A DNA stretch of 64,000 bases from Bacteroidales bacterium (GTDB taxonomy: Bacteria; Bacteroidota; Bacteroidia; Bacteroidales; Paludibacteraceae): NCBI GenBank assembly GCA_012517575.1, contig JAAYUQ010000034.1, positions 1 to 64,000 of the forward strand. The letters are read 5' to 3'. The position numbers were made by a program, and so were the translations under genes. The notes beneath the pieces were generated by a model. That model was not told the origin of the DNA and made no database searches. It saw only the letters and a program-made list of their open reading frames with translations. The stretch's first letter is position 1. Every line of letters starts with the position of its first letter. Shown piece by piece: positions 23,070-26,984 of the stretch.

Positions 23070-23103
23070 ACCTCCCCCAGCCCCTCCAAAGGAGGGGAGT
23101 AAG
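23070..23103 (+). repeat. 34-bp palindromic element, copy 1
   Basis: The core CCCCTCCAAAGGAGGGG is a perfect 7-bp inverted repeat around AAA. It is preceded by ACCTCCCCCAG and followed by AGTAAG. Its G/C content stands out sharply from the A/T-rich surroundings. Copy 2 (23182-23215) matches at 31 of 34 positions. Just before it, at 23048-23060, is a degenerate half copy. Confidence 0.85.
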
Positions 23104-23181
23104 AATGATTTAGTCCTTGTTTAGTCCTGAAATAGGTTTACAAAAAAGTAAACAGTATTCAGGATTATAAACAAAAAATCC

Positions 23182-23215
23182 ACCACCCCCAGCTCCTCCA
23201 AAGGAGGGGAGGAAG
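23182..23215 (+). repeat. 34-bp palindromic element, copy 2
   Basis: Same orientation as copy 1, with three differences (element positions 4, 13 and 31). Core CTCCTCCAAAGGAGGGG keeps the hairpin with one G-T pair. It lies 26 nt past the stop codon of the minus-strand DUF559 gene, which it flanks on that side. Confidence 0.85.
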
Positions 23216-23240
23216 AGTTTAGCGCCTTTGTTCTGATCAG

Positions 23241-23600
23241 CTATTTACGGGCATCCAATGTTTCTTTTATTTGAATGGCTACATACTCTGGATTTGACAA
23301 CACTTCTTCGTTTGTAAATCGAATAACTTTATATCCCTTTTCATTCAACGTATTTGTACGCAACTCATCATATTCTTTTTGCTGTAAATGTATTTTTCCG
23401 TCAATTTCAATAACAACTTTCGCAGAAAGGCAAACAAAGTCTGTAATAAAATTATCAATGATATGCTGTCTGCGAATTCTGTAACCGGTTTTCTTATTAC
23501 GCAAATACTTCCACAACAACTTCTCAGCTTCAGTATAGTTTTCCCTTAATTCTTCTCTGATTGCCTTCAAGTATCTGTAATTGTATAAATCGGCTGTCAC
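23241..23600 (-). CDS. DUF559 domain protein (Vsr/restriction-endonuclease-like fold)
   Basis: 119 residues covering one DUF559 domain. Seen: ELRENYTEAEKLLWKYLRNKK, GYRIRRQHIIDNFITDFVCLSAKVVIEIDGKIH, and RTNTLNEKGYKVIRFTNEEVL. The family is related to very-short-patch-repair and other PD-(D/E)XK-type nucleases, with likely acidic residues in DFVC and VVIEIDG. The true function is not established. No methylase or mismatch-repair partner is adjacent. The gene is bracketed by 34-bp palindromes in opposite orientation, which hints at a mobile unit. It is a full-length domain with no lesion. Confidence 0.85.
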   Translation of the reverse strand: MTADLYNYRYLKAIREELRENYTEAEKLLWKYLRNKKTGYRIRRQHIIDNFITDFVCLSAKVVIEIDGKIHLQQKEYDELRTNTLNEKGYKVIRFTNEEVLSNPEYVAIQIKETLDARK

Positions 23601-23665
23601 ATAGCCCGGTCTGTCGTTTTTAAACTCCTTGCCGTCAACTTCATTATCCGATCTAATTTCTCTGT

Positions 23666-23699
23666 CTTATTCCTCTCCTTTGGAAGGGTTAGGAGAGGT
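23666..23699 (-). repeat. 34-bp palindromic element, copy 3 (inverted)
   Basis: Read on the minus strand it aligns without gaps to copy 1 at 28 of 34 positions; all six differences are transitions. The core is CCCTTCCAAAGGAGAGG. It lies 66 nt upstream of the DUF559 start codon, so copies 2 and 3 form inverted flanks around that gene. Confidence 0.8.
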
Positions 23700-24131: not shown

Positions 24132-26984
24132 TTAGAAAAAATTTGGTTTCCGCTTTCGGGCTTCTTCGAGGGAAAGTATTTCGGTTTTTTGTACTTGATT
24201 TTCACGAATTTCCTGATATTCTGTAGCAATCTCCGAAACAAAATGACTGCGTGTTTTTTCGTTCATCAATTGAGAAACAATGAAAGTATTGACGGAAGCA
24301 TCTTTCACATAAACTACAGGTCCGTGATAATGTGGTGCAATTTTGACTGCCGTGTGAACTTTCGATGTTGTTGCTCCACCAATAAGCAAGGGAACGTTGA
24401 GACCAGCTTTTTCCATTTCTGCTGCAACGTTGCTCATCTCTTCAAGCGAAGGAGTGATCAGTCCGCTTAATCCGACCATATCTACCTTTTCGTTGAGCGC
24501 AGTTTGAATAATTTTATCGGAAGGCACCATGACCCCCAAATCAATAACGTCATAATTGTTGCAAGCCAGTACTACGGAAACAATATTTTTACCAATATCA
24601 TGTACGTCGCCTTTTACGGTAGCAATAAGGAATTTTCCTGCCGAAGAAGCAGTTCCGGCAACTTTTTGTTTTTCTATCTCAGGCTGAAGAATGGTTACGG
24701 CTTTTTTCATGGTTCGTGCCGACTTTACCACTTGAGGCAAAAACATTTTTCCTTCTCCAAATAGTTTCCCAACAATGTTCATTCCGTCCATCAACGGTTT
24801 TTCTATAATTTCCAGTGCTGTATCGTAAAGTGTCAATGCTTCTGCCAAGTCAATATCAAGAAATTCATCAATTCCTTTTACAAGCGCATGTTCAAGACGT
24901 TTGCCAACCGGAAACGACCGCCATTCATCTTTTTTGTCCGATTTTTTTTCGGAAACGGTATTTTTTATTTTTTCGGCGTATTCTATCAGTTGTTCTGTAG
25001 CATCTGCTCTTCGGTTGAAGATAACATCTTCTACTTTTTTCAAAAGTTCCGGCTCAATTTCTTCATAAATGGGTAAAGCTCCCGCATTGACAATTCCCAT
25101 ATCCAATCCGGCTTTAATGGCATGATAAAGAAAAACGGAATGCATGGCCTCACGAACCATATTGTTTCCTCTGAAAGAAAAAGACAAATTGCTAATTCCG
25201 CCACTGACTTTTGCATAAGGCAAATGTTGTTTGATCCAGCGTATCGATTCCAGAAAATCCACAGCATAATTATTGTGTTCTTCTATTCCTGTGCCGATAG
25301 CCAATACATTTGGGTCGAAAATTATATCTTGTGGAGGAAAACCTGCTTTTTCTGTTAGCAGGCTATAAGCTCGAGAACAAATTTCGATTCTACGGTTTAA
25401 TGAATCGGCTTGTCCTTTTTCGTCAAAGGCCATTACAATGGCAGCAGCACCATAGGCTCTCACTTTTTTTGCTTTTTTCAGAAAATCTTCTTCTCCTTCA
25501 TTTAAGCTGATGGAATTGACAATGCTTTTCCCCTGAATACATTTTAATCCGGCTTCAATCACTTCCCATTTTGACGAATCGATCATCAGGGGAACACGTG
25601 CAATTTCGGGTTCGGCAGTAATATAATTCAGAAAAACAACCATTTCTTCTGCTGCATTCAGCATGGCGTCGTCCATATTAATATCCAGCACTTGCGCACC
25701 ATCTTCAACTTGTTTTCGAGCGATGTGGAGGGCTTCTTCGTATTTTTTTTCGTTGATTAGCCTTAAAAACATCCGTGAACCGGCAACATTGCATCGTTCT
25801 CCAATATTCACAAACAAAGATTTTGAAGTCGATTCGATTGATGATATGTCTGCATTTCCCCGATTTTTGTTCGTTGAAAATTCATCCTTTGCGGAAGTAG
25901 TGGACTCAGTGTTATTCATTTGTTTCCATTGGTCAATTTCAAGAGAAATAATTTCCAACAGTTCCAAACCGCTCAGTTCCAAGTTAACAGTTTTTCCTTT
26001 GGGTTTTCTGACAGTTGCATCAGCTATCAGATCCTGATATTTGGCAATATGTTCCGGAGTTGTTCCGCAACAACCACCAATAATATTGACCAGACCTTCA
26101 TCGATGTATTCTTTTACTTGCATTGCCATTCTGTCGGGCGTTTCATCGTATTCACCAAACTGATTCGGAAGTCCGGCATTGGGGTAGGCACTGACGAACC
26201 ATGGCGCATGAGCGCTCATTTCCTGAAGATAAGGTTTCAGATCTTTTGCTCCGAAAGAGCAGTTTAACCCAATAGAAAGCAAAGGCGCATGTGCAACAGA
26301 AGCCATAAAAGCACGGACTGTCTGGCCGGAAAGTGTACGTCCGCTGGCATCGGCAATGGTAGCCGAAATCATTAATTCCACTTTTTTATTCAATTCCGAC
26401 ATGGCTTCTTGAGCGGCAAAAATGGCTGCTTTTGCATTTAATGTATCGAAAATAGTTTCTATCAGCAGCGCATCCACTCCGCCTTCTATCAAAGCCAGCA
26501 TTTGTTCCTTGTAAGCCGCAACAAGTTGATCGAAAGTTATAGCACGTGAAGCCGGATGATTTACGTCGGAAGGTAAAGAAGCCGTTTTGTTGGTTGGTCC
26601 CACCGAACCGGCTACAAATCTTGGCTTTTCGGGGTTTTTTCGTGTGAATTCATCTGCTGCCTGTCTGGCTAAACGGGTCGCAGACAAATTAATTTCTCTT
26701 ATAAATTCGCCCATTCCATAATCTTCCATTGAAATTCGCTGAGCATTGAAAGTGTTGGTTTCAATAATATCGGCACCTGCTTCTAAATATTGATTATGTA
26801 TAGATCGGATAATATCGGGTTGGGTCAAAGAGAGTAAGTCGTTGTTTCCTTTCAGTTGCTTGTTCCATTGAAAAAAACGATCACCTCTGTATGCGGCTTC
26901 GTCGAGCCTGTATCGTTGAATCATGGTGCCCATGGCTCCATCGAGAATCAGAATGCGTTTTTCGAGAGCTGTTTTTAAATTCAT
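24132..26984 (-). CDS. metH: Cobalamin-dependent methionine synthase lacking the reactivation domain
   Basis: 950 residues. It transfers a methyl group from methyltetrahydrofolate through cobalamin to homocysteine. Domains: homocysteine-binding (about 1-325; zinc ligands Cys242, Cys305 and Cys306 in [10 protein letters not shown] and [10 protein letters not shown]), a long linker rich in Ser, Thr and Asn (about 355-390), pterin-binding (about 390-650), cap and B12-binding (about 680-935; cobalamin His795 in [10 protein letters not shown]). The protein stops at [14 protein letters not shown], where classic ~1230-residue MetH enters its S-adenosylmethionine reactivation domain. No remnant of that domain follows. 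A TTTG-N19-TAAATTTG promoter lies upstream. Confidence 0.95.

Follow-up and report, generated by a model that had tools for sequence, protein, structure and literature searches.

DUF559 nuclease genes between inverted repeats of potential triplex-forming design: a candidate bacterial mobile unit that also lies in frame within conserved genes

Introduction

Palindromic repeats lie within protein-coding genes in the form of the Rickettsia palindromic elements (RPE), for which we know of no enzyme. RPE-1, RPE-4 and RPE-6 are mentioned in a paper (PMC3733652) that also gives the features of REP sequences and REPINs, namely palindromic repeats that flank a nuclease gene, gene-less inverted pairs and intragenic copies. 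The partner of these repeats, RAYT, is a Y1 tyrosine (HUH) transposase. Homing endonucleases, by comparison, are associated with an intron or an intein.

The PIT elements and TM motifs are composed of a pyrimidine arm, a purine arm and a purine third strand in mirror image (Holder et al., 2015; PMC4666352), and in the accessible part of that paper they are described without a partner enzyme. The published TM motif reads CCCTCNCCC-GGGNGAGGG-GGGNGAGGG, and repeats of this class have been reported in more than 260 genomes including that of Escherichia coli, with 23 TM motifs listed for strain MG1655. The E. coli motif formed a triplex in vitro, whereas neither its double-stranded form nor footprinting in vivo gave evidence of one. 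TM sites are unstable in E. coli, PIT and TM repeats have been linked to genome instability, and PIT motifs reportedly have neither promoter nor terminator activity, according to earlier work cited there. In the same accessible part the authors give no function for the flanking genes, and the words nuclease, DUF and RAYT (matched at word start) are absent from the main text (PMC4666352).

The DUF559 family is widespread, and Pfam still describes it as a family of unknown function. Here we analyse a DUF559 gene that is bracketed by repeats in a Bacteroidales genome, and compare it with DUF559 loci elsewhere. Among the matches listed in a survey of the open-licence PMC literature, which is not proof of absence, we found no report that links DUF559 or ycjD to palindromic or triplex repeats, none that links DUF559 to LeuRS, and none of in-frame DUF559 units in housekeeping genes. 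On this basis we regard the DUF559-element unit as new: the element class is already published, the link to DUF559 and the in-frame units appear to be new, and mobility is read from sequence comparison.

Results

Three element copies and one DUF559 gene

The window, that is, the whole stretch of 64,000 nucleotides that was analysed, corresponds to contig C110 of an assembly of 2,496,637 bp in 160 contigs, which is 89% complete. The features of the locus are as follows.

23070..23104, minus strand: element copy 1, downstream of the DUF559 gene; reads CCCCTCC-TTT-GGAGGGG-CT-GGGGGAGG on the minus strand, a hairpin with a matching third strand
23150..23177, strand not assigned: spacer stretch between copies 1 and 2, which recurs next to the solo element L318 (G000:C46)
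23182..23216, minus strand: element copy 2, a direct repeat of copy 1 with an imperfect arm; third strand GGGGGTGG
23241..23600, minus strand: DUF559 nuclease gene, 119 aa, GTG start, intact open reading frame; Pfam PF04480
23665..23699, plus strand: element copy 3, inverted, upstream of the DUF559 gene; imperfect hairpin CCTCTCC/GGAAGGG; third strand GGAGAGG, the complement of the pyrimidine arm

The preliminary description had reported an intact nuclease-fold gene with two hairpin copies downstream and an inverted third copy upstream, and all of these were recovered. Copies 1 and 2 are identical at 32 of 35 positions, and copy 3 differs from copy 1 at 6 of 35, every one of these differences being a transition. 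The encoded protein matched Pfam PF04480 with an E-value of 6.9e-35 (119.7 bits against a cut-off of 20.6), and a genome-wide search returned this gene as the single DUF559 match in its genome. A count of the element across the genome, also proposed in that description, gave two occurrences of the exact core CTCCAAAGGAG in the whole assembly, both at this locus, and four matches to a degenerate 27-nt pattern with up to three mismatches, three of them at this locus; the reversed control patterns gave none in either search. The fourth match (G000:C46:21806-21832, at L318) has the look of a dispersed relative, since it also has the spacer stretch beside it (25 of 28 bp identical). The hairpin arrangement at the locus is not a matter of local chance, and the elements look like a set that is tied to the DUF559 gene, together with one dispersed relative.

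Over the 64 kb of the window, copy 1 is the sole strict match to the design of a hairpin plus third strand. Copies 2 and 3 depart from it in part, and no window copy matches the E. coli TM consensus exactly. Rfam gave three sub-threshold matches in the window stretch, of which whalefall-1 (17.8 bits, gathering score 37) overlaps copy 1. A search for the left-neighbour gene in 21 genomes at the family level yielded no empty site for the locus, the three weak matches outside its own genome being too diverged for alignment. The unit lies about 0.4 kb past the 3' end of a metH-like gene (24132-26984, identified by eye), and two other genomes carry a DUF559 unit inside metH, which is probably a coincidence.

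Pyrimidine-armed hairpins accompany DUF559 genes

We assembled a first set of 31 DUF559 loci from the window's own locus, which had been picked for its repeats, and the top-scoring locus of each of 30 further genomes. These genomes came from 295 drawn evenly within the order of the window genome, and repeats played no part in their choice. A hairpin was scored if it had a perfect stem of at least 7, a loop of 2-8 and an all-pyrimidine 5' arm, and lay no more than 300 bp from the domain. Such hairpins were present at 25 of the 31 loci (24/30 without the window locus) and on both sides at 10 of them, whereas the same 300-bp flanks of control genes from the same order contained none (GIY-YIG 0/30, ParE 0/30), and distal windows 800-1100 bp from the same DUF559 genes contained a hairpin at 1 of 31. 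ParE was included as a third family because GIY-YIG, which has inverted brackets of its own, is not a neutral control.

The hairpin criterion had been chosen after inspection of the first 31 loci, and we therefore tested two new sets under the fixed criterion. Hairpins were found at 22 of 29 loci in a cyanobacterial set (the phylum of Nodosilinea; distal windows 0/29) and at 19 of 22 in a proteobacterial set (the phylum of a MAG titled 'Proteobacteria bacterium'; distal windows 2/22), from which 7 of 29 loci with weak partial matches had been left out; the counts of both phylum draws take no account of kinship among genomes. These results strongly support the earlier proposal that the hairpins belong with the DUF559 gene, and we consider it very probable that gene and element form one genetic unit. 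The six loci of the first set without a hairpin by this criterion were L009, L012, L016, L023, L025 and L026, of which L009 and L016 do score in the bracket test described below. HMMs of the exact core were also tried as a detector, and gave few, mostly weak matches at DUF559 loci beyond the window's own; because the arms differ between clades, they were replaced by the model-free tests.

The 17-nt core alone, used as a query of the genome collection, matched at least 119 loci. Among the 119 listed, 16 hold a DUF559 domain, 15 of these with the element within about 350 bp (the exception is L093), against about 0.4 expected by chance (853,621 bases at a density of 50 matches in about 118 Mb); the other 103 have no DUF559 in the examined stretch. 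Eight of 30 element-bearing genomes had no DUF559 match. We had chosen these 30 from the 119 loci, and 8 of them were known DUF559 carriers; of the other 22, 14 had DUF559. The preliminary description had named scatter of the element without any link to DUF559 as the outcome that would speak against its proposal. The element is indeed scattered, but its link to DUF559 stands far above background.

Matched inverted ends, gene-less pairs and tandem units

We then aligned the upstream flank of each gene to the reverse complement of its downstream flank, with a score of at least 30 as the threshold. This bracket test omits 3 GIY-YIG and 1 ParE loci with short flanks. The threshold was reached by 15 of the 31 DUF559 loci, compared with 8.3% of mismatched pairs (p = 1e-8) and none of 29 ParE loci; for ParE, the difference between own and cross pairs was marginal (p = 0.04, medians 20 and 19). 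Corresponding figures for the new sets were 23/29 against 16% of mismatched pairs (cyanobacterial) and 16/22 against 22% (proteobacterial).

In one genome (G312), matched inverted ends of 32-71 bp, 76-100% alike within a locus, were found at six of seven DUF559 loci, the best repeat at the remaining one (L294) being direct; identity among the alignable DUF559 genes is 68-72%. This 1.0-Mb assembly (L215, L235, L293-L299) contains seven DUF559 matches, one of them weak, which is an unusually heavy load, and several of its units are in frame with tsaB, truA, recO and a pyruvate:ferredoxin oxidoreductase gene.

Elements also occur as gene-less pairs. Among 33 adjacent pairs no more than 150 bp apart, 21 had their third strands (feet, see below) pointing outward, 6 had them pointing inward and 6 were in tandem. 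Two related units in another genome (G048), one in hsdR and one in another long ORF, are 74.7% identical over 538 bp, a stretch of homology that begins and ends with the elements. At L262, two copies of a unit are 97% identical over about 555 bp and lie about 4.5 kb apart in flanks that are mostly different. Tandem or near-tandem DUF559 units were seen at L259, L260, L261 and L308, in repeat blocks of 0.8-1.8 kb that are 88-98% identical, which suggests local amplification.

A purine third strand that covaries with the hairpin arm

The elements are laid out as a pyrimidine arm, a loop, a purine arm and a purine third strand, or foot, that mirrors the purine arm. Under a scoring that tolerates A or T opposite A, a third strand matching at 0.85 or better was found for 205 of 252 distinct pyrimidine-arm hairpins (157 units), compared with 35.5 when the flanks were shuffled. 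In 220 of 249 cases the foot was a better fit to its own arm than to equally long arms of other hairpins on average (p = 6e-38, 86 different arms). Because the purine third strand covaries with the hairpin arm, the DUF559-linked elements resemble the PIT/TM motif by design, and they may be able to fold into a triplex. They have in common with PIT/TM repeats the order of arm, arm and third strand and the occurrence of inverted pairs. Unlike PIT/TM repeats as described in the accessible part of PMC4666352, however, the elements here form the ends of a nuclease unit. Of the scored hairpins, 115 had the foot directed away from the gene and 85 had it directed toward the gene, so that the orientation of the ends is not strict.

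A variant of the element, type B, carries an extra hairpin in which the sequence varies and the pairing is kept. A stem of at least 4 was present in 38 of 62 distinct type B regions, against 3.6 in shuffled ones (maximum 10); several of the 24 regions without it look like interrupted stems, and a stricter cut-off of at least 5, which undercounts short stems, gave 19/76. The element type follows the DUF559 tree, with 13 changes compared with a shuffled mean of 28.3 (minimum 21 in 200 shuffles), on the 65 of 105 domains for which a type could be called, the other 40 being dropped.

The idea that the arms are selected for absence of stop codons was rejected, since any GC-rich palindrome of this sort lacks stops: 96 of 156 hairpins were free of stops in six frames, compared with 75 in plain shuffles and 99.5 and 100.8 in palindrome-preserving shuffles. 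Rfam gave no family at the gathering score over the elements in eight loci, and one Flavo-1 match in L046, away from its cores.

DUF559 units in frame within conserved genes

At 8 of the 31 loci of the first set, the DUF559 domain lay within an open frame of about 600 to more than 1300 aa. In the enlarged collection, stand-alone ORFs of no more than 300 aa account for 65 of 105 domains, and the other 40 overstate the in-frame share, since L243-L258 had been added because of their long frames; 8/31 is the figure free of that selection. Nineteen host ORFs were named by an NCBIfam scan (E limits 1e-10 and 1e-6), and 15 of them exceeded the curated cut-off, as LeuRS, IleRS, ValRS, MetH (two), RecG, HsdR, PriA (two), TsaB, TruA, RecO, guanylate kinase and IspE (two). 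The hosts below the cut-off (L013, L254, L256 and L297) were a pyruvate:ferredoxin oxidoreductase, a sugar aminotransferase, a sugar reductase and a BREX-type methyltransferase. In L237, L297 and L328 (guanylate kinase, pyruvate:ferredoxin oxidoreductase and one IspE), DUF559 sits on the N-terminal side of the host domain, and these may therefore be adjoining genes that share a frame and not internal inserts. One ispE-like gene (L324, 334-2064) is in frame with two DUF559 domains, one N-terminal and one internal.

In the internal inserts, the hairpins are translated as linkers. A hairpin within 300 bp was found for 33 of the 40 long-frame units, on both sides in 23, and for 47 of the 65 stand-alone units, on both sides in 21. 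The inserts are in frame and open from end to end, and the scans of the 19 hosts, which were general family scans, returned the host families and DUF559 and no intein model.

The metH gene offered a comparison within a genus, that of Chryseobacterium takakiae, which was centred on a single inserted genome. Twenty-nine of 30 metH genes are uninserted and have a 12-residue linker; in the inserted one, this linker is replaced by 164 residues that comprise a DUF559 domain and hairpin ends, and the flanking DNA aligns on both sides. No target-site duplication was found at the inserted metH. The preliminary description had also named, as a refutation, presence of the element at one place in every related strain without an empty site; for metH, empty sites do exist. 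The in-frame inserts in housekeeping genes and this genus-level comparison with empty sites support mobility of the unit of gene and hairpins, which the preliminary description had put forward as a conjecture.

Re-use of sites, signs of inheritance and selection

A tree of DUF559 domains (105 rows, 101 columns) has limited resolution, with 37 of 102 inner branches open. On this tree, nine LeuRS inserts need at least three changes, two of them forced by well-supported branches, and six IleRS inserts need two, both forced by such branches. Two MetH inserts occupy the same linker and are not sisters, and two RecG inserts are sisters. Three PriA inserts lie at one site, in a comparison that takes no account of genome kinship. 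The window gene groups with the inserts of housekeeping genes (support 86/84, which is not strong).

Some inserts look inherited. An insert in LeuRS was present in all three genomes examined of one family, and dN of insert and host was 0.237 and 0.307, and 0.121 and 0.113, in two IleRS pairs and 0.142 and 0.191 in a RecG pair. As insert dN is close to host dN, the IleRS and RecG inserts need not be recent arrivals. Most DUF559 pairs tested are, on their substitution ratios, under purifying selection: in LeuRS, dN/dS came to 0.056 in one insert pair, where the host had 0.057, and to 0.207 in a pair that lies further apart. The two Chryseobacterium-type pairs had values of 0.051 and 0.102, and the two tandem pairs 0.22 and 0.57, the last of which (L308) is not clearly constrained.

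Fold of the DUF559 protein

An AlphaFold model of the window protein had a mean pLDDT of 89.6. Its nearest solved structures were a DUF559 protein (3hrl, Z 16.2), I-Bth0305I (3r3p, Z 13.3; rmsd 2.1 over 93 residues) and Vsr (Z 11.4), so that the model has a fold like that of a homing endonuclease. I-Bth0305I and Vsr belong to what we take to be the EDxHD nucleases. RAP-type mitoribosomal proteins also match the model, at Z about 10, and the fold alone is therefore no proof of a nuclease. At least 103 of 105 domains retain residues D40, E51, D53, H57 and D64, as do all 40 of the domains in long frames. To judge from the conserved residues and the model, the nuclease looks active.

The ycjD gene of Escherichia coli

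TM motif no. 9 of MG1655, at 1,351,204-1,351,239 in the coordinates of PMC4666352, adjoins ycjD, which is annotated as a DUF559 protein (1,351,407-1,351,760 of NC_000913.3). On the 3' side of ycjD, the sequence shows this element together with another hairpin. The gene has matches in 3,365 of 5,426 complete genomes. Two of the E. coli strains without the ycjD neighbourhood were examined, and as an unrelated operon occupies the place after fabI in them, they do not represent a clean empty site. The ycjD region has at least a partial match in 41 records of the plasmid collection, and the two that hold most of it are both 4.8-4.9 Mb long. Carriage by phages is unlikely, since 3 of 50,697 phage records contain a relative of the window protein.

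In one strain (L385, NZ_AP021891.1), ycjD has lost 106 bp between two 23-bp direct repeats at its 3' end, which leaves the gene truncated. We considered excision of the element and rejected it in favour of ordinary slippage between the direct repeats.

Discussion

Taken together, the sequence comparisons suggest that the window holds what is probably a homing-like mobile unit of about 0.5-0.6 kb, which requires no splicing and consists of DUF559 between inverted, potentially triplex-forming ends. We infer that DUF559 itself moves the unit. The nuclease would cut or nick the element or its vicinity, a preferred site within a conserved gene, or both. Repair of the break would then, as in homing, either use the unit as a template or lead to its insertion. 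As splicing does not appear to remove anything, an insertion into coding DNA would survive only if it is in frame and in a surface loop or linker that tolerates it. Solo elements and gene-less pairs, among them the PIT/TM repeats of E. coli, would be either by-products or non-autonomous relatives that stand to the unit as REPINs stand to RAYTs.

The hairpins could, on the simplest account, be transcription terminators or RNA hairpins of an ordinary kind next to a small gene, and G/C-rich hairpins do adjoin the gene end. We regard this as scarcely credible: many genes have elements on either side, elements also occur within ORFs, their third strand covaries with the stem, the control genes have no such hairpins, no Rfam family reached its gathering score over the elements of eight loci, and PIT motifs are reported, in earlier work cited in PMC4666352, to be inactive as promoters and terminators. 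DUF559 could also have been domesticated, giving LeuRS, IleRS or MetH a new function. The purifying selection on the inserted nuclease, whose dN/dS in LeuRS is almost that of its host (0.056 and 0.057), and the retention of the insert by all three genomes examined of one family are what this account would lead one to expect. Domestication nevertheless seems very unlikely to us, given that DUF559 occurs in many unrelated hosts as well as in stand-alone genes, mostly with repeat ends in both settings (33/40 and 47/65), and that 29 of the 30 Chryseobacterium metH genes do without it.

Two further accounts accept that the elements spread and assign DUF559 a different part. If another enzyme or replication errors spread the elements, these might accumulate near DUF559 passively, in dispensable and unstable spots. 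The 103 of the 119 listed core loci that have no DUF559, the 8 of 30 element-bearing genomes that have no match to it and the instability of TM sites in E. coli (PMC4666352) agree with such hitch-hiking, but it does not readily account for the absence of hairpins from all 60 flanks of two other small-gene families, for an element type that tracks the DUF559 tree, or for units that enter conserved genes, which are not dispensable spots, with both ends; we hold it to be unlikely. Alternatively, DUF559 might act as RAYT does, on single-stranded hairpins and without homing, the in-frame cases being survivors of random insertion. Gene-less pairs no more than 150 bp apart that resemble REPINs (21 feet-out, 6 feet-in and 6 tandem), matched inverted ends at six of seven loci of G312 in spite of a difference of about 30% between the alignable genes, and the 65 of 105 domains in stand-alone ORFs of no more than 300 aa fit this possibility. 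That several families have inserts at the same LeuRS and IleRS sites, and two separate lineages at one MetH site, exceeds what random insertion would give, although selection for tolerant loops could concentrate the survivors, and the fold of DUF559 is not HUH/Y1. It is a possible but doubtful explanation.

The likeness to REP sequences and RAYTs, which the preliminary description had drawn, holds in part. Hairpin repeats flank a nuclease gene, and gene-less inverted pairs and intragenic copies occur as they do among REPs and REPINs (PMC3733652). However, the partner is DUF559, with a modelled fold nearest to 3hrl, I-Bth0305I and Vsr and not to Y1, and neither a GTAG nor a CGTC tag is present on either strand of the three window copies and 10 bp on each side. 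The triplex third strand and the nuclease units inside housekeeping genes are further differences. The DUF559 unit would thus appear to work like a REPtron but, by its modelled fold and its sequence, is not one. With I-Bth0305I and Vsr, which are its closest folds after 3hrl, DUF559 shares a presence in conserved genes; in place of the intron or intein of a homing endonuclease, of which none was seen in the general scan, the units have inverted triplex repeats and in-frame fusion. They resemble RPEs in being palindromes within protein genes, and differ from them in carrying an enzyme.

The homing-like reading can be taken further. The units may represent an autonomous mobile class found across bacteria, with a nuclease of the Vsr/homing type, triplex-forming ends and in-frame homing free of splicing, and DUF559 would then supply the enzyme that the orphan PIT/TM repeats lack, with YcjD as the partner of those in E. 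coli. GIY-YIG genes with other palindromes may be a parallel system, so that several repeat families would each be served by a nuclease of their own, other than a transposase. For this wider proposal we see the arguments as evenly balanced. If true, the link between DUF559 and PIT/TM repeats would explain both the orphan repeats and the DUF559 family, and would amount to a new route by which whole domains enter essential enzymes such as aminoacyl-tRNA synthetases, RecG, PriA and methionine synthase. E. coli K-12 has both the gene, ycjD, and mapped repeats, which makes an old puzzle directly testable.

The GIY-YIG loci (L153-L182, from the same order) carry inverted palindromes of another family, of the CTTCGAC..GCTCAG..GTGAC and GTCAT-hairpin types. 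The bracket score was at least 30 at 8 of 27 GIY-YIG loci, compared with 0 of 29 ParE loci. The word CCTTCGAC was present at 9 of 30 GIY-YIG, 1 of 30 ParE and 0 of 31 DUF559 loci, and the word CCTGAGCG at 7 of 30, 0 of 30 and 0 of 31, respectively. By eye, the GIY-YIG palindromes resemble the CGTC/TGTC-tagged REPs, which are described in PMC3733652 as REPs without a dedicated transposase.
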